Source: Microcaldota archaeon (GTDB taxonomy: Archaea > Micrarchaeota > Micrarchaeia > Micrarchaeales > Micrarchaeaceae). Taken from it: a stretch of 39,407 nt of DNA. Position 1 is the first letter of the stretch, and each line of letters begins with the position of its first letter. Below are positions 5,440-36,381 of this stretch, piece by piece. The stretch is taken from positions 1-39,407 of the forward strand of contig JAJYWI010000020.1 of assembly GCA_021791535.1 (NCBI GenBank). The letters are read 5' to 3'. The notes under the pieces are model-generated. The model was not told the DNA's origin, made no database searches, and saw only the letters and a list, made by a program, of their open reading frames with translations. A program made the position numbers and the translations under genes.

Positions 5440-5738
5440 CTGCGCTTCCTGCCCCTGCCGGAATAGTACTGAGCCGCAAGCAGCGCCACTCCGATTATGA
5501 TCAGGAATATCCCTATGTACTGCATGTTCGCTGCGTTGGTGCATGGGGCGAGCACCGCGGCGTACGTCGAGTTCGAGGTTACGCTGCTGTTGTGAAGCGC
5601 GCCCTGGACCAGGCTGCTGCTGCACGCGTAGGTGGCGATGAACGTCGTTACAGTTGCATTGGCGTTTACCGCGTACAATATCACGCCGCTCAGGATAAGT
5701 ATCGCCCCAACGACAGCCAGCAATGGTATCTTGGTCAT
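5436..5738 (-). CDS. small membrane protein with external Cys-containing loop
   Basis: 100 residues from the ATG at 5738 (MTKIPLLAVVGAIL). A TTG at 5753 would add five residues but has no support. There are two membrane segments: residues about 5-25 (LLAVVGAILILSGVILYAV) and about 70-90 (YIGIFLIIIGVALLAA). The roughly 45-residue loop between them holds two Cys, five N-x-S/T-like sites and many small residues, suggesting an outward, possibly disulphide-bonded and glycosylated loop. The C-terminus is very basic (RGRGRKRR). The TATA element at 5780-5785, read leftward as TATAAA, would start transcription near 5755. The gene overlaps 5041-5439 by 4 bp. Confidence 0.7.
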   Translation of the reverse strand: MTKIPLLAVVGAILILSGVILYAVNANATVTTFIATYACSSSLVQGALHNSSVTSNSTYAAVLAPCTNAANMQYIGIFLIIIGVALLAAQYYSGRGRKRR

Positions 5739-5777
5739 GAGTCCGCCCCGCAACCTATTGGTGCTTCTTTGGAAAAG

Positions 5778-5880
5778 TTTATATGCCTTTCAATCGGCAG
5801 CTCGCGGGGCGAGGCCTCCTATGCCGAGGCGGCGGAGGCGGCGAGGTCAGTGGGCGAGTACGGCTGCGGCATATTTTTAT
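5778..5880 (+). ncRNA. candidate GC-rich structured RNA behind a two-way TATA element
   Basis: TTTATATG at 5778-5785 is preceded by purine-rich bases on both strands (GGAAAA one way, GAAAGG the other) and could fire both ways. Rightward, transcription would begin near 5805. The sequence then becomes very GC-rich and folds well: CTCGC (5801-5805) pairs with GCGAG (5809-5813), and GCCTCC (5814-5819) pairs with GGAGGC (5834-5839) around an inner GCCG/CGGC pair. ATATTTTTAT at 5871-5880 could end a transcript. One frame reads EAARSVGEYG, close to EAPRSVG in the 119-bp repeat, so this may be a decayed relative. Not matched to any known RNA. Confidence 0.3.
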
Positions 5881-5889
5881 ATACCCTTC

Positions 5890-6897
5890 TCACCAACGCT
5901 CTTTCAAAATCTTTTTGTACCACTTTTTATATTTTATGTAACCATTATCGAGTTCGCGAGCTTTTCCGTACCATTCCTTAGCCTTTGTGCGATGTCTTCT
6001 TTTCTCTTCAATTATCCCCATTAGCACGAAGGCTTTTCTTTTTAATAATAGTTTTGATTTTATCACCCTGTTCAGATGGTTTATTGCACTATCTAAATCT
6101 CCTCTCTTTATCTCCACAACGGCTTCGTGGAACGCTGCATACGGATTGCGTTCAAGTTGCCTTCTATATTTTTCATCATTTTTTTTAAGTTCTTCATAAA
6201 CTTCTTCTCTTTGTCTTCTATATTTTTCATCATTTTTTTTAAGTTCTTCAGCAATTTCTTCTTCTTGCCTTCTATATTTTTCAACATTTTTTTTATGTTC
6301 TTTAAATTTTTCATCAACTTCTTCTATTATGTCAAGGGTGCTAAGTCCAATTTTTGCCATATAGTAATCAGGGTACAATTCAAGCGCTTTTCCGTACCAA
6401 AATCTCGCCTTTGCGTAGTTCTTTCTCCCAGTTTCAATTGAAGCCATCGCCATAGCGGCATCATGGCTTTTTGGCTGGAGTTCAAAAACCTTATTCAGAT
6501 TCTTTATCGCCGAGTCAAAATGCCCCACACTGGATTCAGCCAAGGCCTTATTGTGATACGCCGAGGCGAATTTGGGGTCTATTGAAATAGCAGCATCGAA
6601 CTCTTTCAATGCGTCAGCGAATTTTCCCTTCTCATAGAGCACCACCCCGGCATTAAACCTAGCCCTTGCGTCATTTAGGATCGCTTTGCCTACCTGCTGT
6701 TTCGCTTTGTAGGATATGTGCTTCTTAAAATATTCGTCCGGTATCTCTTCCAGCGCTCCGGTCTCATTTAGTTCAGCTATATGCTGTCTTATAGTCGCCC
6801 TAGATAGGCTCAGCTTCCTGCTAAGTTCTGGAACAGTCAGGCTGTTCTCCTTAAGCGCTTCGAGTATCTTTCTTTTTGTTTCAAGTCTTTTGCTCAT
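5890..6897 (-). CDS. HTH-TPR-coiled-coil protein
   Basis: 335 residues. Residues about 1-55 are a winged helix-turn-helix (ILEALKENSLTVPELSRKLS, then SRATIRQHIAEL), like archaeal MarR/ArsR-type DNA-binding domains. Residues about 75-190 are three TPR units (for example AGVVLYEKGKFADALKEFD and ISIDPKFASAYHNKA). Residues about 195-250 are a charged coiled coil made of an 18-residue unit (EKYRRQ.EE..EELKKND) repeated nearly three times. A fourth TPR-like pair closes the protein. This architecture suggests a DNA-bound scaffold or sensor. The start is backed by GGTGACGTGA just before the ATG, at the end of a roughly 65-nt leader that holds a strong hairpin. It is the last gene of a leftward group with a nuclease (7055-7744) and an Ala-rich protein (7785-8498). 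Base composition is AT-richer than the housekeeping genes. Confidence 0.75.
   Translation of the reverse strand: MSKRLETKRKILEALKENSLTVPELSRKLSLSRATIRQHIAELNETGALEEIPDEYFKKHISYKAKQQVGKAILNDARARFNAGVVLYEKGKFADALKEFDAAISIDPKFASAYHNKALAESSVGHFDSAIKNLNKVFELQPKSHDAAMAMASIETGRKNYAKARFWYGKALELYPDYYMAKIGLSTLDIIEEVDEKFKEHKKNVEKYRRQEEEIAEELKKNDEKYRRQREEVYEELKKNDEKYRRQLERNPYAAFHEAVVEIKRGDLDSAINHLNRVIKSKLLLKRKAFVLMGIIEEKRRHRTKAKEWYGKARELDNGYIKYKKWYKKILKERW
6161..6322 (+). repeat. 54-bp in-frame tandem repeat, about three units
   Basis: Units begin at 6161, 6215 and 6269, each starting CTTCTATATTTTTCA, with a strict 54-bp period. The first two are almost identical and the third more diverged. The repeat is in frame with the leftward gene 5890-6897 and adds an 18-residue coiled-coil unit per copy, so unit number can change without breaking the frame. 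Confidence 0.9.
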
Positions 6898-6916
6898 TCA
6901 CGTCACCAAATACTGA

Positions 6917-6968
6917 GGGAGGCCCTGATACCAACACCAAAAGGGGAGAAGGATTCCCCAGGCCTCCC
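6917..6968 (-). promoter_or_regulatory. hairpin in the 5' leader of the HTH-TPR gene
   Basis: GGGAGGCC (6917-6924) and GGCCTCCC (6961-6968) are perfect inverted repeats of 8 bp. Inside them GGGGA and TCCCC form a second 5-bp stem with a 7-base loop (about 6942-6958). A leftward TATA-like TTATTAATAT near 6990-7000 would start transcription near 6965, which places the whole structure in the untranslated leader, ending about 20 bases before the ATG at 6897. No T-run follows, so it is not an intrinsic terminator. A regulatory leader or protein-binding site is inferred. Confidence 0.5.
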
Positions 6969-7054
6969 CTTAACTTATGGATACTGGAGATATTAATAAG
7001 TTACCAAAACAAGCGGTTTTTGTTGGTTTTTAAAAGGGGTATGCGGCTCCGTTT

Positions 7055-7744
7055 TCAACCTAGGATGCCCAATTTCCTGAGCCGTGATCTTAGTCCTCCA
7101 TACTGTCTCCCAAATTCTACGGAAAGTCCTTTTACTATAGATTCCTCTGGGGCGGCCTTATCCAAATTTCTTAAGCGCAGATACCGCTCTTTTAACTTAT
7201 TGTCGTCGCTGGGGTACCACCTTGTTTCTTTATTCGCCGCTTGCACACCATAGAATAGCAGTGAGGGATTACTGGAATATTCAACCTTGTTGAACCGTCC
7301 TAGCGGCATGACAAAAAATTGAGACTTGGAGCTCTTTACGATTCTTCCAAGCTCTCTTATGTAATCCACCTGCACACCAAACCACTCCGAAAAATTGTCG
7401 ACTTCACTTGAAAAAACAAGAAAGACCGGCTTACCGAATTTATTCTCCGCTGCCGAGAGCCTATACACCTCCCCTCTGTTAATGGTAATCCCTCTCTGTT
7501 CGTTGGCGTGTGGCGGGAGATGCTTTGTGTCTACCAGTATCCCCCTGCCTTTCCCGATAGTTATATCGAAATCTGGCCTTTTGGCCCTATCGACCCTAAG
7601 ACTTTTTGAGAAGGTTTCTGGCGTTTGGTCTATGCGGGTATAGATCAGCTCATAGCGATCCAGCCACTCCTTAAATCGTTTTTCTACCTCTTCGCCTGCC
7701 TGTTTCTTATCGGCAGAAACCGCATACCTGTACATCGGGTTCAT
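7055..7744 (-). CDS. PD-(D/E)XK nuclease-like protein
   Basis: 229 residues. The core motif reads RPDFDI, then about nine residues, then GILVDTKHL at about residues 57-76, giving the Asp and the Asp-x-Lys pair of PD-(D/E)XK nucleases. An acidic helix near the N-terminus (AGEEVEKRFKEWL) matches the usual first conserved Glu. The region after the motif (FLVFSSEVDNFSEWFGVQVDYI) fits the following strand and helix of the fold. The C-terminal 70 residues are basic (RSRLRKLG). It is a cytoplasmic DNA or RNA nuclease by fold, with unknown target. The start ATG is 40 bp after the end of 7785-8498, implying one transcript. The group nuclease, HTH-TPR and helical protein looks like a small accessory or defence-type module, but this is inference. 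Confidence 0.65.
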   Translation of the reverse strand: MNPMYRYAVSADKKQAGEEVEKRFKEWLDRYELIYTRIDQTPETFSKSLRVDRAKRPDFDITIGKGRGILVDTKHLPPHANEQRGITINRGEVYRLSAAENKFGKPVFLVFSSEVDNFSEWFGVQVDYIRELGRIVKSSKSQFFVMPLGRFNKVEYSSNPSLLFYGVQAANKETRWYPSDDNKLKERYLRLRNLDKAAPEESIVKGLSVEFGRQYGGLRSRLRKLGILG

Positions 7745-7784
7745 GGGACTACTCTCATCAGTAATCTAATCTTCTGTGCAACAT

Positions 7785-8498
7785 TTATCCTTTGCGTAGC
7801 ATCCTGCCATAAGCCTCGATTGGCCTGGTACCGTAAATAACGAGCATGTCGCCGTAATCGCACAGAACCCCGTAACCTAGCTCCCATAGCTGCCAACGCC
7901 TTTTAACATGCTCCCAACTGGTATCTTTACCTTCAAAACCCACGCCAGTAGCAAGGAGGTATAATGCGTATAACGCCGCATCCCTTGCTGCAGCCTCCGC
8001 CGCGGCATACAGTTTGATCTCATCCAGCTCGCCTGAACGCTTTCCGGCGTCGTATACCGCATCCCTTGCTGCTTTACCTGCCGTAGTTTCCACCGCATAC
8101 AAAGCCTCGGTTCTATATCTCTGGCCAATCGGCAGATGTTCCTCAGAGCTCATTATCGCATCATGCACAGCATCCCACGCATCTTCGTACATCTTGTTGT
8201 AGAACGCCAAGCCCCCCATCCTCTCGACCTCCAGTGCATATTGCTCTGCTGTGGCTCGCGCAGTGCCACAGCCATCACCGTAAAATACCTTCTCATTCCA
8301 GAGGCATACGCCGTTAACTGCGTATCTAAAATGGGTTTCTATAATTTCGTTGTGCGGACTGAAGAACATACAATGATTGAGATTGCTCAAAAAATGGTTT
8401 ATAGATGTTCGGACTTCGTCAGGCAGATGGGGAACGTCCAAGACATTTCCGCCTTTGTTGGGAAGGCTTCCATAATCCGCTGTTTTTGCATGTTTCAT
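7785..8498 (-). CDS. hypothetical Ala-rich helical protein
   Basis: 237 residues. The middle (about 80-190) is Ala-rich and helical (AGKAARDAVYDAGKRSG, AAAEAAARDAALYALYLLA), possibly a helical bundle or short helical repeats. Flanks are richer in aromatic residues (WEHVKRRWQLWELGYGV). No catalytic motif, signal peptide or definite membrane span is visible. A TTTATTTATATC element at about 8529-8540, read leftward, would start transcription near 8506, so the ATG at 8498 gives an almost leaderless mRNA. It is the first gene of the leftward group with the nuclease and the HTH-TPR protein. I do not recognise the family. Confidence 0.65.
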   Translation of the reverse strand: MKHAKTADYGSLPNKGGNVLDVPHLPDEVRTSINHFLSNLNHCMFFSPHNEIIETHFRYAVNGVCLWNEKVFYGDGCGTARATAEQYALEVERMGGLAFYNKMYEDAWDAVHDAIMSSEEHLPIGQRYRTEALYAVETTAGKAARDAVYDAGKRSGELDEIKLYAAAEAAARDAALYALYLLATGVGFEGKDTSWEHVKRRWQLWELGYGVLCDYGDMLVIYGTRPIEAYGRMLRKG

Positions 8499-28346: not shown

Positions 28347-28709
28347 GTGGGTCTGAAGGATAACTCATCGCATTTTGCATCGCAGCTAATGCCGATGGAG
28401 CTCAAGCGCGTGATACTCAAGGCCAGGATACTCGGCAGGCTGAAGCACGGCAAAACCTACTCGTACGCCATGATAAAGGAGTTCGAGGGTTCTGGGTTCG
28501 CTGAGTTTTTCGGGCCGACAATAAAGAACGACACGTACAACGCGCTCGGCGTCCTCATAAAGGCCGGCTACATAAAGATGCAGCCGAAGGTGGAAGGAGG
28601 CAAGGTGAAGAACTATTATGCACTGACAGCTAGAGGGGACGCCGCGCTCAAGTCTATAGGCAAGCTGATGGTAAGGACGCTTAAAGAGGCCAGCAGGCTC
28701 TTCAGGTGA
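28347..28709 (+). CDS. PadR-like transcription regulator
   Basis: 120 residues from GTG at 28347; an internal ATG at 28390 (MPMELKRV) is an alternative. The winged-helix core follows the PadR plan: KARILGRLKHGKTYSYAMIK (helices 1-2), a recognition helix in FGPTIKNDTYNALGVLIKAGYI, the wing QPKVEGGKVKNYYALTARG, and a C-terminal helix (DAALKSIGKLMVRTLKEAS) for dimerisation. PadR-type proteins usually repress a neighbouring exporter and their own gene. Here palindromes overlap the start site, and the ABC ATPase begins 4 bp after the stop, which fits that arrangement well. The inducing ligand is unknown. Confidence 0.75.
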   Translation: MGLKDNSSHFASQLMPMELKRVILKARILGRLKHGKTYSYAMIKEFEGSGFAEFFGPTIKNDTYNALGVLIKAGYIKMQPKVEGGKVKNYYALTARGDAALKSIGKLMVRTLKEASRLFR

Positions 28710-28713
28710 GTGC

Positions 28714-29703
28714 ATGAATGACATAATCAAGATAGAGCACCTGGTCAAGAGGTTCGAGGACTTCACTGCCGTCAACGACGTAAGCCTCACAGTCAAGGAT
28801 GGTGAGATATTCGGGCTATTGGGGCCGAACGGCGCGGGGAAGACCACTATAATAAACATGCTCCTGACGCTGCTGACGCCCACTTCGGGGAAGATAACAA
28901 TCAGCGGTATGGACCTCTCAAGGAACCATGAGAGGGTCAAGCAGCTCATGGGGCTGATGACCCAGGAGACTGTTGTCGAGGCAGACCTGACCGCGAGGCA
29001 GAACCTGAGCCTTTTCTCGCATCTTTACCACATACCGAGGGCTATTGCAAACAAGAGGATAGGCGAGGCATTGAGAGAGGCAGACCTGGTCAACTTTGCT
29101 GATGTGAAGGCTGGTACTTTCTCTGGTGGTATGCAACGGCGCCTCGGCCTGGTGCGAGCCATGCTGCAGGAGCCGAAGATCCTTCTCCTCGACGAGCCTA
29201 CAACCGGACTCGACGTGCAGAACAGGAGCACCATGTGGGAAAGGATAAAGGAGCTCAACAGGAGCGGCACCACGATACTCCTCACAACACAGTATCTGGA
29301 GGAGGCGGACGAGCTCTGCGACCGCCTTGGCATAATAGACCACGGCAAGGTGATAGCGCTTGGCACACCATCCGAGATAAAGAGGATAGCCGGCAGCGGG
29401 AAGGTGCTCGAGATAATAGTGAACCTGCAGGATGTCCAGAAGGTGGTATCGCTGCTCAAGTCCAGGTTCAAGCTGGCTGCGACGTACCATGGCGACAGGA
29501 TAACCGCGCCGCTGGACAAGGACGGCGAGGGAGAGTTCACGAAGATATCCGCGACGCTAGAAAGGATGAGGATACCCGTGCTGTCCATAGGTGCGCACCT
29601 GCCGACGCTCGATGACGTTTTCATAAAGCTAACGGGCACTGGAATGCGCGATGCTGCGGGTGAGATGCGTGGCAGCAGGGCTAATTTGAGGTGGAGACGA
29701 TGA
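28714..29703 (+). CDS. ABC transporter ATP-binding protein (DrrA type)
   Basis: 329 residues, the ATPase of an ABC-2 export system. All nucleotide-binding motifs are present: Walker A GPNGAGKTT (about residue 38), the Q-loop near LMTQETVVE, signature FSGGMQRRLG, Walker B ILLLDEPTTGLD, and the H-loop region in LLTTQYLEEADELC. The switch position reads Gln (TTQY), as in many DrrA-like proteins. The C-terminal 90 residues (VLEIIVNLQDVQKVV onward, ending with ..LDDVFIKLTG) are the DrrA-type extension. It is in a five-gene run led by the PadR-like regulator, and its TGA overlaps the permease ATG. Confidence 0.94.
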   Translation: MNDIIKIEHLVKRFEDFTAVNDVSLTVKDGEIFGLLGPNGAGKTTIINMLLTLLTPTSGKITISGMDLSRNHERVKQLMGLMTQETVVEADLTARQNLSLFSHLYHIPRAIANKRIGEALREADLVNFADVKAGTFSGGMQRRLGLVRAMLQEPKILLLDEPTTGLDVQNRSTMWERIKELNRSGTTILLTTQYLEEADELCDRLGIIDHGKVIALGTPSEIKRIAGSGKVLEIIVNLQDVQKVVSLLKSRFKLAATYHGDRITAPLDKDGEGEFTKISATLERMRIPVLSIGAHLPTLDDVFIKLTGTGMRDAAGEMRGSRANLRWRR

Positions 29704-30821
29704 GCCTTATAGAGGATTCCATAACAATATTCACTAGGGAGTTCGCTATATTCAAGGCTAACCTCAGGTCTAACATAATCAGGACAGCTATATTCCCGCT
29801 CGTCATACTGCTTTTCTTCGGGTTCCTTGGCTCCGCTATCACGAACGTGCCTGTCGTGGTGGTGAACTACGCGAACAACAACCAGGCGTCGCAATTCATA
29901 AGCACGCTAAGCTCGCAAAACCTTATGCAGGTCCAGGCGGTCACCACGCAGGGCGCTGCGCTGAGCATGCTCTCATCGGGCAAGGTCGACTTTGTCATAG
30001 TAATACTGCCTGGCTTCCCGTTGCAGGCAGGCAGCCCGACCGTCCAGGTCTACTACAACAACCTGGAATTTAGCACTACGCAGGAGATACTGCCAGCTAT
30101 ACAGAAGGATGCCGCGATATTCGGCCCTGCAATAAATTTCCAGAGCCAGGAATACCTGCCGGCATCAGGCAGTGCCGCTTCGGCGGTAACTCCGATAACC
30201 GGCGCGAACGGCAACTATGGGGATTTCCTCTTCTCCGGTGTTATAGGCATGATAATAGTATTCAGCACCCTCTTTAGCGCTGGCATAGGCGTGCTAACTG
30301 ACAAGCAGGGAGGGCAGATAAAGTCATTCCTGATAACGCCGATAAACAAATCGGCAATCGTGCTGGGCAAGATCCTATTCAGCGCGGTGCAGTCGATCCT
30401 CTCCATATTCATCGTCATAGTGATTGGCCTCCTTCTAGGGAACACGATACTGATGGGCTTGACAGGCATTGTATGGATATTGATACTAGGCACGCTGCTT
30501 GGCATAACGATGACCGGCATATCCATAAGCGTGGCGAGCAGGATGAAGAACATGACAGCTTTCCAGATATTCGGCCAGACGCTTGGCCTTCCGCTGTGGT
30601 TCATTGCAGGCGGCATAGTCCCGGTATCGAGCTTCCCGCCCATACTCCGGGCGCTCAGCGTCGGCGACCCGATGACATATGCCATCAAAGGCTTCAGGTA
30701 CGTGGTGCTCCAGGGATTCTACCCGTTTAGCAGCATGGTTGTCGATGTGACCGTGCTCGCAGCGCTGGGGATCATAACAACGATTATAAGCATATTGCTA
30801 TTCAAGAGCACGATAGATTGA
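29700..30821 (+). CDS. ABC-2 type permease
   Basis: 373 residues from the ATG at 29700, which overlaps the ATPase stop (ATGA) and is preceded by GAGGTGGAG, a strong ribosome binding site. Six membrane segments can be drawn. The first is near residue 35 (FPLVILLFFGFLGSAI). A large external loop of about 130 residues follows (VVVVNYANNNQASQF onward), then a five-segment bundle from about residue 185 (FLFSGVIGMIIVFSTLF) to the end. This is the usual ABC-2 layout for exporters of drugs, lipids or polysaccharide. It pairs with the ATPase at 28714-29703. The substrate may be linked to the secreted protein encoded next. Confidence 0.92.
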   Translation: MSLIEDSITIFTREFAIFKANLRSNIIRTAIFPLVILLFFGFLGSAITNVPVVVVNYANNNQASQFISTLSSQNLMQVQAVTTQGAALSMLSSGKVDFVIVILPGFPLQAGSPTVQVYYNNLEFSTTQEILPAIQKDAAIFGPAINFQSQEYLPASGSAASAVTPITGANGNYGDFLFSGVIGMIIVFSTLFSAGIGVLTDKQGGQIKSFLITPINKSAIVLGKILFSAVQSILSIFIVIVIGLLLGNTILMGLTGIVWILILGTLLGITMTGISISVASRMKNMTAFQIFGQTLGLPLWFIAGGIVPVSSFPPILRALSVGDPMTYAIKGFRYVVLQGFYPFSSMVVDVTVLAALGIITTIISILLFKSTID

Positions 30822-30839
30822 TGATAAAAAGGTGAAAAC

Positions 30840-32111
30840 ATGAACAAAAAAGCGGTTTTTGGTGTACTGTCGGCGTTTGCTGTGATCTCAATGCTGTTTG
30901 GGGTCGCTGCTGCGCAATCAACAAACGTGGCTACAGGGTCGCTGTCCATACAAGGCCTTACAGTGAGCCCAACGCCTGTAGCCGCGGGTGACAACATAAC
31001 AATATCGTTCAACCTCTTCAATTCATACAGCCAGTCGCTCTCGGACATAAGCCTGTGGGTCAGCGCGCAGAACCCGATAATAAACGTTTCTCCGGCGTAC
31101 AGCACATACATCAGCGGAATAGGCACGGGGCAGTACGGCGGTGTCGTAGCGAACAGGTTCACGTATGAGTTGCACATACCATCGACGCTGCCAGCCGGCG
31201 ACTATGAGATAGATGTGATCGCGAACTACCAGACGACAGAGGGGGTAAGCACCGGCATATCAGCCCAGTCGGTGATGCCTATCTACATATACGTGTACGG
31301 GAAGCCGCAGGTGTCGTTGAACGTGTATCCGACAGGCAAGATAGTCCCCGGGGAGGATTTCACGGCTGCGCTCACTGCGGTCAATTCTGGCACCGACCTG
31401 GCAAGGAACGTGACCGTCCAGCTTCTCAACTCCACTTACTTCAAGCCTGACGGCGCCGATGTCTTCTCGTTCGGGATACTCGGCTCTGGAAGCTCCGCCA
31501 GCTCTACAGCAACCATATTCACCGATCAGAACGTCACTGGGGGCCTGAACTACGTCGATGCTAGGGTCAGCTACACGACGAATGAGGGAGCATATGTCAG
31601 CAATATAGTGCAGGTGCCTCTAAATGTGCTGCAGAACACTGCCAAGTTCATTGTTACCAACGTGAGCGGAAAGGTCCAAGCCGGCGCAACATACGCGCCA
31701 GTCACCTTCACTGTCCAAAACACAGGGAACGAGGAGGCTACCGATGTGGAGTTCAGCCTTCAGACTATATACCCGGTCACTCCTGTCAATCCGGACGTTT
31801 TCCTTGCATCGATAGGGCCCGGGCAGTCGGCTAACCTGACCTTCTACGTGCAGGGCAACTCCAACGGCAACACCGGGGAGTACCCTGTCACGCTCTATGC
31901 GCAATGGAACCAGCCAAACGGGGCAACCAACCAGCAGTTCTCGGGTTCGGCAAACTACTATGTTGCAGTAGAGGGCAAGGTCGGGCTCTTCACAGCTGCG
32001 AACGATGACTACTTCATAATAGCGGCTGTGGTGATAGTAGCGCTCATAGCCATGAGGGTTGCAATAGCGAAGGCAAGAAAGAAAGCTATAAATTCCAGGG
32101 CGAAGAAGTAA
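30840..32111 (+). CDS. secreted, C-terminally anchored Ig-like protein (CARDB/S-layer-associated type)
   Basis: 423 residues. A signal peptide (VFGVLSAFAVISMLFGVAAAQ) is followed by three beta-sandwich domains of about 110-120 residues that share the pattern of CARDB/COG1361-like modules (VSPTPVAAGDNITISF; PTGKIVPGEDFTAAL; GKVQAGATYAPVTFTVQNTG). Many N-x-S/T sites suggest glycosylation. A C-terminal membrane segment (DYFIIAAVVIVALIAMRVAIA) and a basic tail anchor it with the domains outside. GGTGAAAAC before the ATG is a clear ribosome binding site. It follows the permease by 18 bp. Secreted proteins of this type often accompany archaeal ABC-2 exporters and may serve as the external part of the transporter. 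Confidence 0.85.
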   Translation: MNKKAVFGVLSAFAVISMLFGVAAAQSTNVATGSLSIQGLTVSPTPVAAGDNITISFNLFNSYSQSLSDISLWVSAQNPIINVSPAYSTYISGIGTGQYGGVVANRFTYELHIPSTLPAGDYEIDVIANYQTTEGVSTGISAQSVMPIYIYVYGKPQVSLNVYPTGKIVPGEDFTAALTAVNSGTDLARNVTVQLLNSTYFKPDGADVFSFGILGSGSSASSTATIFTDQNVTGGLNYVDARVSYTTNEGAYVSNIVQVPLNVLQNTAKFIVTNVSGKVQAGATYAPVTFTVQNTGNEEATDVEFSLQTIYPVTPVNPDVFLASIGPGQSANLTFYVQGNSNGNTGEYPVTLYAQWNQPNGATNQQFSGSANYYVAVEGKVGLFTAANDDYFIIAAVVIVALIAMRVAIAKARKKAINSRAKK

Positions 32112-32121
32112 CGTTGATGCA

Positions 32122-33006
32122 ATGAAGACTCCATACGAGGGCCTCATCAGCGTGGCGATGAAGAGGTACGGGGTGCCAGACTGGGTAGCCCCGTACATAT
32201 ACAAGTACGCCAAGCGGAGCGACCTTTTCACTATAAAGCGGGCAATCAGCTTCATAAACGTGCGCAGGAAGAAGGGGGTCCTCACAGGCAGGCAGGTAAG
32301 GCTGCCCAACGGGGTCACATTCGATATAGATACAGTATCGCACATACTCAACCAGTTCTACTACGGCGTCGACACGGAAGCGAGAATCTCTGAGCGGTGG
32401 GCTGCTGAGTACACCGATTATGACCATGCTAACTTCACGAAGCATTACAAGGAGCTTGCCGCGCTGAGAACGAAGCATGCGAGGGCGCTTAAGAACATGG
32501 TTGAGGGGCTGGGCCACAAGATAGATAAACCGAGCAGGGGCATTGAACGGGTGTTCAACACGATCGCCGAGCTCGACGAATGGCCTGACAGGCTGATAGC
32601 GACAGAGATAATACTGAGGGATTCGTATTCTAGGCCGTTCGGCTTCATCTTCTACAAGGTGTTTTACCCCGTTTCCCCGGAATTCATGAGATCGTTGGGC
32701 AAGCTATTCACTAAAAAAGATGATGGAGGCAATTGGGCCGAGGAGGAGATAGGGAAGGTTGTCGGGGAGATGGCGCTGACAAGCGAGCATATCATAGATC
32801 TAGCAGAAAGGATACTAGCGGAGATATACCGGTCGATAGACTCTGAGATGCCGCTGGCGAGGAGGTCGAAGGTGGAAGCCGAGACCATGCTGCTGCGCGA
32901 CATATCCATTGCGTATCCGCTGCACACGCTGAAGGAGCTCGGAGTGGAGCTGGACGTGGACAGGGAGATGAAGAGGATAGCAGTGCTGGGCAAGAAAAAG
33001 GGTTAG
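32122..33006 (+). CDS. hypothetical helical protein of the export operon
   Basis: 294 residues, soluble, almost all helical. The N-terminal 80 residues are basic with aromatic residues (VAPYIYKYAKRSDLF). The middle and C-terminal parts look like long bundle helices containing Glu and His (FTKHYKELAALRTKHARAL; EEIGKVVGEMALTSEHII). The Glu/His placement recalls ferritin-like four-helix bundles, but no standard ExxH pair is clear, so this is only a guess. It starts 10 bp after the secreted protein gene and completes the PadR-led run. A new promoter lies after it at about 33021-33030. I do not recognise the family. Confidence 0.6.
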   Translation: MKTPYEGLISVAMKRYGVPDWVAPYIYKYAKRSDLFTIKRAISFINVRRKKGVLTGRQVRLPNGVTFDIDTVSHILNQFYYGVDTEARISERWAAEYTDYDHANFTKHYKELAALRTKHARALKNMVEGLGHKIDKPSRGIERVFNTIAELDEWPDRLIATEIILRDSYSRPFGFIFYKVFYPVSPEFMRSLGKLFTKKDDGGNWAEEEIGKVVGEMALTSEHIIDLAERILAEIYRSIDSEMPLARRSKVEAETMLLRDISIAYPLHTLKELGVELDVDREMKRIAVLGKKKG

Positions 33007-33074
33007 CCGCCTTGCATAGAATCTTTATATATCTTGGCAGCAAAGCATTTTTGTGTTAGAATGCGTGGTGAGCT

Positions 33075-35678
33075 ATGCAGCACAAAAATCCCACAATCAC
33101 CCTGTGGACCGATTTGGACCACGACCTCGAGTTCAGGAAGGAGCAGATCGAGATCGGCGAGGGCAGCATTAGCGTAGCCACGCGACATGGAAGGCTGACA
33201 ATAGCGCTAAACGACATCAGCAGCGCATACACCGAGGAGGGGCTGGGCATCGGCAAGCTCGTAGTGATAACAAAGAACGGCAAGGAAACCGAGCTCGCTT
33301 ATGCAACGAAGAACCTGATGCCGAACTTCAAGAGGCTTGCACTCGCGCTCAATGCATACAAGGCGAAGAAAAGGCTGGACTTCGTACCAAGTCAGGAGGA
33401 GCAGGCAAAGAAAGCAGGCCGGATGGGCACCATAAGGTGGATAGCCGGGTTCCTCCATCCTTACAGGAAAGCGCTCATAATAGGCATGGTGCTTGCGGTC
33501 GTAGCCGCGGGACTGAGTCTTGTTCCTGCGTACATGCTCAAGATACTGATAGACAACGTGCTGCTGGTGAGCAACGCTCCGGAGGGGCTTTTCCTCAAGC
33601 TTACCGTAATACTGGTGTTCGCCTACCTGGCCAACACAATATTGTCGCTGGTCCAGAACTACGTGCTGAGCAACCTAGGCCAGCGGATAGTCAACAGCCT
33701 GCGCTCCAAGGTGTATGACCGCGCAATGGAGTTCTCGTCCGGCATGATAGACAGGATAACGAGCGGCAGGATAATCACGCGCCTGACTACAGACGCAGGC
33801 AACATGCAGTGGCTGATGGCGTTCGGCTTCCCAACCATACTGGTGAACATGCTTACGCTGATAGGCATAGGCGTAATCCTGTTCAGCATGGACTGGAACC
33901 TCGCAATATACGTGCTCATTCCTACGCCGTTCGTGGTGTACGCGCTGATAAAGTATAGGGAGAGGTCGCACAACGCCTACCACAAGAACTGGAGGCGCAG
34001 CGCCGACATGATAAACACGCTGTATGACACGGTGTACAGCTACACAGTAGTAAAATCGTTTGCCAAGGAGAGGTTCGAGGGAACCAGGCTGGAGGGGCAG
34101 CTCGACAAGCTGTACAAATCCAACAATGACATAATCAAGCTGAACCTTTCGTACTGGCCGGCCATAGGCTTCCTGACGTCGTTGTCAACAGTCATAATAT
34201 GGTGGGTCGGCGGCAACCAGGTGATCGGCGGCATAATAGAGGTAGGAGTGATTACCGCCTTCGTTGCGTATATGGTCATGTTCTATTCGCCCATAAACCA
34301 GCTGAGCAGCATCCTGCCCTATGTGCAGCAGGCGCTGACATCCGGCGACCGAATACGCGAGATAATAGACCGGGAACCGGACATAAGGAACGTGAAGTCT
34401 CCAAGGAAGCCGAACATGAACCAGGACATAGAGTTCAGGGGCGTATGGTTCGGCTACGATCCCTATGTGCCTGTCATCGAGAACTTCAACATGAAGCTGA
34501 AGGCCGGGCACAATATAGCAGTAGTGGGCAGGAGCGGATCCGGGAAGTCGACGATAGCGAAGCTGATGATGAGGTTCTACGAGGCGAACAGGGGCTCGAT
34601 AAGGGTAGGGAACACTCCGCTCAGGAACATAGAGCTCACTTACCTGCGTGACAGGATAGCGTACGTGCCGCAGGATGTTGCGCTTTTCGACAACAGCGTG
34701 GCCTACAACATAGGCTACGGGGCCAACAGGAGGATAACCGACAAGGAGATAATAGCATCGGCACGCGCCGCAAGGATACACGATGAAGTCATGCAGTTGC
34801 CCATGGCCTACGACACCGATCTTGGTGAAAGGGGATGGTCGCTGTCTGGAGGCCAGAGGCAGAGATTGTCTGTGGCGAGAGCGATAATCAAGAAGCCCGA
34901 CATAGTGATACTCGACGAAGCAACCTCGAACCTTGACGTTGAGAGCGAGCAGGAGATATACTCGGCTGTGCTCAACCTCACCAAGGGCAAGACCACGATA
35001 TTCGTCACGCACAACATAAACGAGGTCATGCACGCGAACAAGGTGATCATGATGAAGAAGGGCAAGATAGTGGAGTCGGGGGAGCCGAAGGCGCTATACC
35101 ATTCCAGAAAGGAGTTCCACAGGATGTTCAGCAAGCAAATGGAGCACTGGAACCCGAAGATAGCGAACCCTGCAAAGCACAACCCCTCGATAGAATCATA
35201 CGTGAAGGACGCAGTGAGGGATTACGCATCGGTCAGGATATCCGAAGGCGCGAGGAGGAGCAAGGTGGATGCCATCACGAACGGCATAAGGCTCAGCGGA
35301 CTGACCCCGAAGCTGCCATTCCCGATAACCAACTCCAACTTCATCATGCTCTACGATTCCGAAGGTAAGGCAAGGCTAATACTAGAGGACTACAGCAAGC
35401 TGGACAACGAGTCGAGGAACACGCTAGAGGCATCAGTGCTGCTTAGCACGTTCAAGCCTACGATAAGCAAAGTCATGAAGATAGATATAAGGGGAGATGA
35501 GCTAGACTGGAACGTCGTAGTGGGCGGCGGCGAGCTGACCATAAACACCAAGGGCAGGAGGAACGTGATGCTCTACCCGGGCAAGATAGTGTTGACTGAC
35601 GTGAAGGACAACATATACGAGATGAACCTTAGGGAGCTCGACAGGAGGAGCCAGCGCCTGATTGCGGCAACGATCTAG
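33075..35678 (+). CDS. ABC exporter with N-terminal PH-like and C-terminal DUF1854-like domains
   Basis: 867 residues, far longer than a normal half-size exporter (about 580). Residues about 5-105 form a small beta-rich domain (EQIEIGEGSISVATRHG, IGKLVVITKNGKETELAY) like bacterial PH domains. Residues about 115-430 are the six-helix exporter domain. Residues about 445-690 are the ATPase: Walker A GRSGSGKST (about 485), signature LSGGQRQRLS (about 590), Walker B IVILDEATSNLD, switch VTHN. Residues about 735-867 match DUF1854: LPFPITNSNFIMLYDSEGK, STFKPTISKVMKI, then VLTDVKDNIYEM and RELDRRSQRL. From memory, DUF1854 proteins are separate neighbours of ABC exporters in bacteria, some beside cyanophycin-type genes. 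GGTGAGCT sets the start. The promoter TTTATATATC is near 33022-33031. Confidence 0.88.
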   Translation: MQHKNPTITLWTDLDHDLEFRKEQIEIGEGSISVATRHGRLTIALNDISSAYTEEGLGIGKLVVITKNGKETELAYATKNLMPNFKRLALALNAYKAKKRLDFVPSQEEQAKKAGRMGTIRWIAGFLHPYRKALIIGMVLAVVAAGLSLVPAYMLKILIDNVLLVSNAPEGLFLKLTVILVFAYLANTILSLVQNYVLSNLGQRIVNSLRSKVYDRAMEFSSGMIDRITSGRIITRLTTDAGNMQWLMAFGFPTILVNMLTLIGIGVILFSMDWNLAIYVLIPTPFVVYALIKYRERSHNAYHKNWRRSADMINTLYDTVYSYTVVKSFAKERFEGTRLEGQLDKLYKSNNDIIKLNLSYWPAIGFLTSLSTVIIWWVGGNQVIGGIIEVGVITAFVAYMVMFYSPINQLSSILPYVQQALTSGDRIREIIDREPDIRNVKSPRKPNMNQDIEFRGVWFGYDPYVPVIENFNMKLKAGHNIAVVGRSGSGKSTIAKLMMRFYEANRGSIRVGNTPLRNIELTYLRDRIAYVPQDVALFDNSVAYNIGYGANRRITDKEIIASARAARIHDEVMQLPMAYDTDLGERGWSLSGGQRQRLSVARAIIKKPDIVILDEATSNLDVESEQEIYSAVLNLTKGKTTIFVTHNINEVMHANKVIMMKKGKIVESGEPKALYHSRKEFHRMFSKQMEHWNPKIANPAKHNPSIESYVKDAVRDYASVRISEGARRSKVDAITNGIRLSGLTPKLPFPITNSNFIMLYDSEGKARLILEDYSKLDNESRNTLEASVLLSTFKPTISKVMKIDIRGDELDWNVVVGGGELTINTKGRRNVMLYPGKIVLTDVKDNIYEMNLRELDRRSQRLIAATI

Positions 35679-35760: not shown

Positions 35761-36381
35761 ATGGCAGAAACTATAGTTGGCGCGGAACATCAGGGGGCAC
35801 CAGACAACGTAATATACGTAGGGAAGAAGCCGACGATGAACTATGTACTTGCGGTAGTCACGCAGATAAACAGCGGTATCGGCACTGTGATGATAAAAGC
35901 GCGCGGGAATCTGATATCCAAGGCTGTTGACGTGGCCGACATCGTAAGGAAGAGGTTCCTTACAGACTTGAAGGATCCAAGCGGGGAAGGCATAGCTATA
36001 GGATCTGAGGAGCTCGCCAACGAGGACGGCACGAAGTCAAAGGTAAGCTATATACAAATCGCAGCTGTGTCAAGCAAGCGCAAGGATGACAACGCAGCAC
36101 CGCCAAAAAGCAGCATGGTATACATCGGCAGGAAGCCGACGATGAACTATGTACTTGCCGTAGTCACGCAGATGAACAGCGGTGTGCCGTCAGTAACCGT
36201 TAAGGCGCGCGGGAATTCGATCTCCAAGGCTGTTGACGTAGTAGAGATAGTGAGGCACAGGTTCCTTCCGGACATCCAGGACCCAAGCGCAGGGGGCATA
36301 GCGATAAAATCAGAGGAGATCGCCAACGAGGACGGGACTAAATCAAAGATAAGCTCGATCCAGATAGCGATTAAGAAGTAG
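35761..36381 (+). CDS. tandem Alba-domain chromatin/RNA-binding protein
   Basis: 206 residues made of two Alba domains joined head to tail. Domain 1 is about residues 15-100 (VIYVGKKPTMNYVLAVVTQ) and domain 2 about 117-205 (MVYIGRKPTMNYVLAVVTQ). Both keep the Lys-Pro pair of the Alba N-terminus, the ARGN(L/S)ISKAVDV helix and the C-terminal SYIQIA/SSIQIA strand. Single Alba proteins bind DNA and RNA as dimers, so this one should form an internal dimer. The DNA of the two halves is highly similar with a 306-bp period, pointing to a recent duplication or gene conversion. AGGTAAC precedes the ATG. It converges with the CBS gene with no bases between stops. Confidence 0.92.
   Translation: MAETIVGAEHQGAPDNVIYVGKKPTMNYVLAVVTQINSGIGTVMIKARGNLISKAVDVADIVRKRFLTDLKDPSGEGIAIGSEELANEDGTKSKVSYIQIAAVSSKRKDDNAAPPKSSMVYIGRKPTMNYVLAVVTQMNSGVPSVTVKARGNSISKAVDVVEIVRHRFLPDIQDPSAGGIAIKSEEIANEDGTKSKISSIQIAIKK

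Follow-up and report, generated by a model that had tools for sequence, protein, structure and literature searches.

The nearest NCBIfam models to the protein analysed here are NF052233, an ABC transporter, and NF052234, a DUF1854 protein, which describe a bacterial two-gene module and are both named 'cyanophycin metabolism-associated'. A literature search returned no paper on DUF1854, PF08909, NF052233, NF052234 or 'cyanophycin metabolism-associated', and no experiment on any member. PH-domain proteins have been linked to ABC export in another system, the peptide EntDD14, whose export is reported to require them beside an ABC transporter (PMC8657885). The family models and the DUF1854 domain are already public; what is new here is a fused archaeal branch of the two-gene exporter module.

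The window is the whole 39,407-nucleotide stretch of Micrarchaeota DNA that was analysed, and belongs to a genome of 741,367 bases (∼0.74 Mb, 93.3% complete). An 867-aa ORF with an ATG start and no internal stops was located on its forward strand, and the three-part fusion of PH-like N-terminal domain, ABC exporter and DUF1854 reported in a preliminary description was confirmed there. The following features were assigned.

33075–35678, + strand: whole gene of the PH-like / ABC exporter / DUF1854 fusion protein, 867 aa

33096–33368, + strand: N-terminal domain of predicted PH fold, residues 8–98 (predicted structure, fold alignment, bPH_3 in unfused homologues)

33474–34292, + strand: ABC_membrane transmembrane region, residues 134–406 (Pfam, 1.1e-40)

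34479–34928, + strand: ABC_tran ATPase, residues 469–618 (Pfam, 6.4e-31; catalytic residues invariant in 10 sequences)

34527–34553, + strand: Walker A, GRSGSGKST, residues 485–493 (read from the sequence; conserved in the alignment)

34842–34856, + strand: ABC signature LSGGQ, residues 590–594 (read from the sequence; conserved in the alignment)

34908–34922, + strand: end of Walker B with the catalytic Glu615, ILDEA, residues 612–616 (D614 and E615 invariant)

35298–35666, + strand: DUF1854 (PF08909), residues 742–864 (Pfam, 2.2e-25, 89.4 bits)

33024–33035, + strand: TATA-box-like stretch, tttatatatctt, upstream of the exporter gene (seen in the sequence)

ABC_membrane, ABC_tran and DUF1854 were each matched by Pfam well above their own cut-offs. 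DUF1854, placed at residues 735–867 in the preliminary description, was matched at 742–864 with 89.4 bits against a curated cut-off of 26.8 bits; this family match is beyond chance and is the single occurrence of the domain in the window genome. ABC_membrane followed by ABC_tran in a single chain is the layout of a type IV (ABCB-like) ABC exporter. The ATPase motifs are intact (Walker A, Walker B with its Glu, LSGGQ, Q-loop and H-loop), and both Walker motifs, LSGGQ, Q533, E615 and H646 were invariant across 10 aligned sequences. A C39 peptidase domain was not found in the 867-aa protein by the Pfam scan. The best one-chain relatives of solved structure were TM288, a bacteriocin ABC exporter, Sav1866, BmrA and MsbA, and relatives with the same architecture were ∼40–46% identical to the window protein. 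The upstream stretch, which we take to resemble a TATA box, suggests that the exporter gene may have a promoter of its own.

The N-terminal ∼105 residues gave no Pfam match over cut-off; CheF-arch alone appeared, at E 0.025 and under its cut-off. A model predicted from 48 related N-domains has seven strands and a C-terminal helix, with a mean pLDDT of 89.1. All 50 chains listed by VIA-align were of PH, PTB, FERM or GRAM type, as classed by their entry titles, with Z 7.6–9.5, and the bacterial PH domains 3dcx and 3hsa aligned to the model at Z 8.0–8.1. Foldseek placed PH-type entries on top, none at E ≤ 0.001, and comparison of the N-domain with the sequences of solved structures gave nothing below E 0.25. 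The bacterial PH family gave a divided result: Pfam bPH_3 (PF14470, cut-off 23 bits) did not match the window N-terminal fragment at E up to 5, whereas among 10 homologous N-domains scanned five were above the cut-off and two below it, the three without a match being those of L127, L154 and the bacterial (Gemmatirosa) exporter. The earlier assignment of the window domain as PH-like is upheld by predicted fold and by relatives; a family match of its own does not contribute. Proteins, too, are bound by many PH folds, and lipid binding is not obligatory. Homology between the N-domain and DUF1854 was also considered and was ruled out (hhalign probability 1.7%).

DUF1854 was modelled from 51 sequences with a pLDDT of 91.4 and a pTM of 0.56, the latter pointing to two well-formed parts of unsure mutual placement and leaving the overall predicted shape uncertain. 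Comparison of first-half and second-half profiles gave a score of 30.6 over 30 aligned columns, far above 100 column shuffles (≤ 14.4), and DUF1854 therefore holds an internal repeat. A strand-turn-strand segment and an LD-x-x-S helix close each copy. Across the 51 rows F30, P31 and G100 are invariant, and W93, D123, D137 and S140 are conserved at ≥ 90%. The DUF1854 fold search gave no match at E ≤ 0.001, and nothing below E 0.25 was found among the sequences of solved structures. The best VIA-align result was DUF1285 (2ra9, 2re3), at Z 5.3 and rmsd 3.0 over 67 residues of the second half only, which is within the tool's uninformative range. DUF1285 is described as a duplicated, vaguely PH-like protein (PMC2954208), and an internal duplication would be common to both families. 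A resemblance of predicted fold at Z 5.3 would be too low a foundation for kinship.

DUF1854 was found in 17 of 301 genomes of the Micrarchaeota phylum, with 18 matches, none of which was a stand-alone gene. Fourteen lay within ORFs of ≥ 856 aa; the other four came from an ORF with a frame change (G223), a contig end (G271) and a gene spread over two contigs (G228, two matches). The phylum of G304, read as Thermoproteota, carried DUF1854 in 45 of 300 genomes at 52 places, made up of 29 in ORFs of 163–188 aa, 15 in ORFs of 833–947 aa (including L151, an artefact) and eight others. For the order of the Sulfolobales genome, matches were obtained in 15 of 147 genomes, 14 in ORFs of 833–888 aa and one in a 499-aa ORF. 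The genome of a Sulfolobus acidocaldarius laboratory strain also contains a DUF1854 match. A one-genome-per-species scan with a transmembrane alignment yielded 22 loci, among them ones from Caldivirga, Thermoproteus, a Sulfolobales archaeon and Thaumarchaeota. Nine of these were profiled together with a bacterial locus (L065): six were three-part single ORFs, three were cut or broken and the bacterial one was split. Judged by ORF length and domain content, the three-part protein recurs in Micrarchaeota and Thermoproteota and is not peculiar to the window archaeon. Two side observations concern individual loci. An identical exporter was present in two MAGs of different families (L055 of G236 and L056 of G212), both from the DBS1 site, probably through mis-binning; and a stray DUF1854 fragment consisting of the last 35 positions (L066 14704–14880, iE 1e-9) lies ∼4.5 kb downstream of an intact gene.

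Forty archaeal loci were fetched and profiled for the three domains, and all three parts were fused in 16 of them. At the 16 split archaeal loci covered, out of the 29 stand-alone DUF1854 rows of the G304 phylum, a PH-ABC exporter gene was in every case directly upstream of the separate DUF1854 gene and on the same strand. The exporters of 14 split loci were positive with the N-domain profile; L130 and L133 were negative, although L130 reaches bPH_3. In L145 and L146, which are fused, the N-domain has diverged beyond the reach of the profile and can be seen by eye beside that of L127. L119, L121, L123 and L124 are exporters of 754–783 aa with a DUF1854-like C-terminus and without a PH domain; three of the four genomes concerned also have a separate DUF1854 gene. 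The ORF of L139 is broken. A 947-aa N-bearing fusion at L151 (G507, 5566–8406) was rejected as artefactual, being produced by a stretch of N together with a shift of frame; the tail of the exporter is in another frame, and the locus is probably split. At L118 (3195–9530) and L122 (4475–10840) the PH-ABC exporter, DUF1854 and two more ABC exporters of ∼590–603 aa lie in a row.

The bacterial sample consisted of one example, Gemmatirosa kalamazoonensis, which carries the split form on a plasmid as an exporter gene with an adjacent DUF1854 gene on the same strand. Its exporter has an N-terminal extension that aligns to the PH-like domain, with a probability of 34.6% and E 0.0004 (for a single comparison) on profile comparison; N-domain profile searches did not reach it. 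The extension is probably a PH-like homologue. A tblastn search of a plasmid collection with the window DUF1854 and N-domain gave no match at E up to 1. The full window protein matched 3654 plasmid records, none with 80% query coverage in one place, and Gemmatirosa DUF1854 recovered only itself. Since unfused, two-gene exporters already carry the PH-like domain, this domain appears as an old component of the exporter, and DUF1854 alone was joined on. In the preliminary description the PH-like domain counted as an additional fusion partner; this view is not supported, as archaeal exporters of the unfused kind already have the domain and the bacterial exporter probably does.

A tree was built from 58 exporter cores, leaving out L054 (broken ORF), L061 (cut) and L139 (broken). 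Thirty-one fused rows formed one clade with full support, L145 and L146 paired (100/99) with L127, a split row, and the fused rows that lack the PH domain (L119, L121, L123 and L124) formed a separate clade. A single clade of the 33 N-bearing fused rows without L151 was rejected (p-AU 0.0006), as was one of 34 fused rows including the doubtful L151 (p-AU 6.8e-56). At least three changes between fused and split forms are needed without L151, and two if the PH-less rows are also dropped. As the fused forms are not one clade, fusion or fission has recurred on this tree, which does not separate fusion from fission. The recurrence supports the direct working link between exporter and DUF1854 that had been proposed from the fusion alone, and with the adjacency at 16 of 16 split loci that link is well backed. 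The window core was nearest to rows of the Caldivirga type, with 57% identity to L149. The idea that Micrarchaeota acquired the exporter several times over was considered and dropped, a single Micrarchaeota clade not being rejected (p-AU 0.519).

Genes around the exporters were compared for ORFs down to 80 aa, shorter ones falling outside the comparison. Thirty proteins, of which 28 flank exporters and two are further upstream genes of the window, were scanned and proved mixed, including GH57, GH38, alpha-L-fucosidase, sulfatase, DNA ligase, Rad51, ThiI, AdoHcyase and OTCase; a run of carbohydrate enzymes was seen but was inconsistent. Neighbour genes were rejected as a substrate clue: the most shared cluster, an oxidoreductase family, occurred in only 9 of the 58 sequences compared, and because no neighbour gene is widely common the substrate is not readable from context. 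Downstream of the window exporter (35761–36381) is a tandem fusion of two domains that we take to be Alba domains. A single-copy gene of this type by the G223 exporter (L054 7166–7471) matches both window halves, at 61% and 68%; L054 comes from another family of the window's order, and the downstream Alba gene is common to the two loci. Upstream (28347–32111) are a small, presumably PadR-like ORF, an ABC-2 ATPase and permease, and a secreted NPCBM/CARDB-type protein, among which the generic ATPase alone exceeded weak similarity to proteins near related exporters. The 294-aa ORF just upstream of the exporter (32122–33003) gave no Pfam match.

The window protein would be a conserved exporter module in one-chain form. 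Two such chains would pair to form a type IV exporter of the MsbA / P-glycoprotein type with two complete ATP sites, transporting outward. The PH-fold domain would lie in the cytosol, immediately ahead of the first membrane helix, with DUF1854 attached to the end of the ATPase domain; together they may recruit a substrate or partner at the inner membrane face and control the use of ATP, DUF1854 acting as a dedicated regulatory subunit that is sometimes covalently tied on. The substrate would most likely be an amphiphile or a small peptide-like compound taken from the membrane or cytosol, and not cyanophycin. We consider it reasonably probable that the protein works as an ABC exporter in homodimeric form, with its PH-like and DUF1854 domains serving to recruit substrate or to gate the ATPase, bearing in mind that DUF1854 could be purely structural and that PH folds need not bind lipid.

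Export or handling of a peptide-like polymer of the cyanophycin kind had been put forward in the preliminary description, and is in keeping with the names of the nearest NCBIfam models and with an ABC transporter gene reported beside two copies of cphA in sludge bacteria (PMC10687191). The window protein scored far below the cut-offs of those models, at 418.1 bits against 880 for NF052233 and 41.7 bits against 150 for NF052234. Cyanophycin synthetase (TIGR02068) was over cut-off in none of the 40 exporter-bearing archaeal genomes, and the search of the window genome (G000) gave no match at all. Weak matches were obtained in 28 of the 40, most of them confined to a single short segment that the profile has in common with other enzymes, the best partial match having 55.9 bits against a cut-off of 850. 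One of 14 control genomes did exceed the cut-off, which shows that the search works. A role in moving or handling such a polymer is thus highly improbable. That the fusion arose by accident in this one lineage, or through misassembly of the window MAG, is scarcely credible. DUF1854 is absent from all eight other genomes of the window genus, and the apparent fusion at L151 did prove an artefact, but the idea is already refuted by the uninterrupted architecture in separate genomes of the phylum, in other orders and in other phyla.

Export of a small leaderless bacteriocin-like peptide, the PH domain acting like DdE/DdF of EntDD14, is a possibility to which we give limited weight. The reported need of EntDD14 export for PH-domain proteins (PMC8657885) is consistent with it, as are the bacteriocin exporter among the best one-chain solved relatives and the missing C39 peptidase domain, which fits a leaderless cargo; against this, no small precursor gene was conserved beside the exporter among ORFs ≥ 80 aa, and DdE/DdF were likened by description, not by sequence. 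It is similarly unlikely that the pump is a general drug or lipid exporter in which the two accessory domains, DUF1854 and the PH-like one, do no more than stabilise or position it through folding or dimerisation. The PH-less relatives (L119, L121, L123 and L124) manage without that domain, which is not essential to every member, but the invariant and near-invariant residues of DUF1854 over 51 rows would exceed the need of a mere tether. Less likely still is an exporter or flippase of archaeal membrane lipids or lipid-linked glycans, in which the cytosolic PH fold would read the membrane or a lipid headgroup and the internally repeated DUF1854 would pass the signal on to the ATPase; on that view the cyanophycin neighbourhood in bacteria would have arisen later, as a lineage-specific use of the pump and not its original role.

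An unstudied bacterial gene pair with a possibly misleading label thereby becomes an exporter module whose parts are defined and listed, and which occurs both in Micrarchaeota, with their reduced genomes, and in Thermoproteota. The 'cyanophycin metabolism-associated' label should not be carried over to archaea. In the fused chain the parts are tied 1:1 and only one polypeptide needs to be purified, which makes the role of DUF1854 directly testable.

MsbA, Sav1866, BmrA, TM287/288 and P-glycoprotein share with the window protein every catalytic motif and the core formed by transmembrane region and ATPase; to our knowledge their cores have neither an N-terminal PH-fold domain nor a C-terminal DUF1854. 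The EntDD14 system, with the PH proteins DdE/DdF and the ABC transporter DdHIJ, likewise combines PH domains with ABC export, but its PH domains are on separate proteins and its abstract names no DUF1854 (PMC8657885). The bacterial module of NF052233 and NF052234 has the same exporter core and the same DUF1854; it consists of two chains instead of one, the window protein scores far under its curated cut-offs, and no cyanophycin synthetase was matched in the window genome. The two-gene archaeal module of Thermoproteota has the same three domains in the same order as the window protein, and differs in that its DUF1854 is a separate ORF of 163–188 aa.
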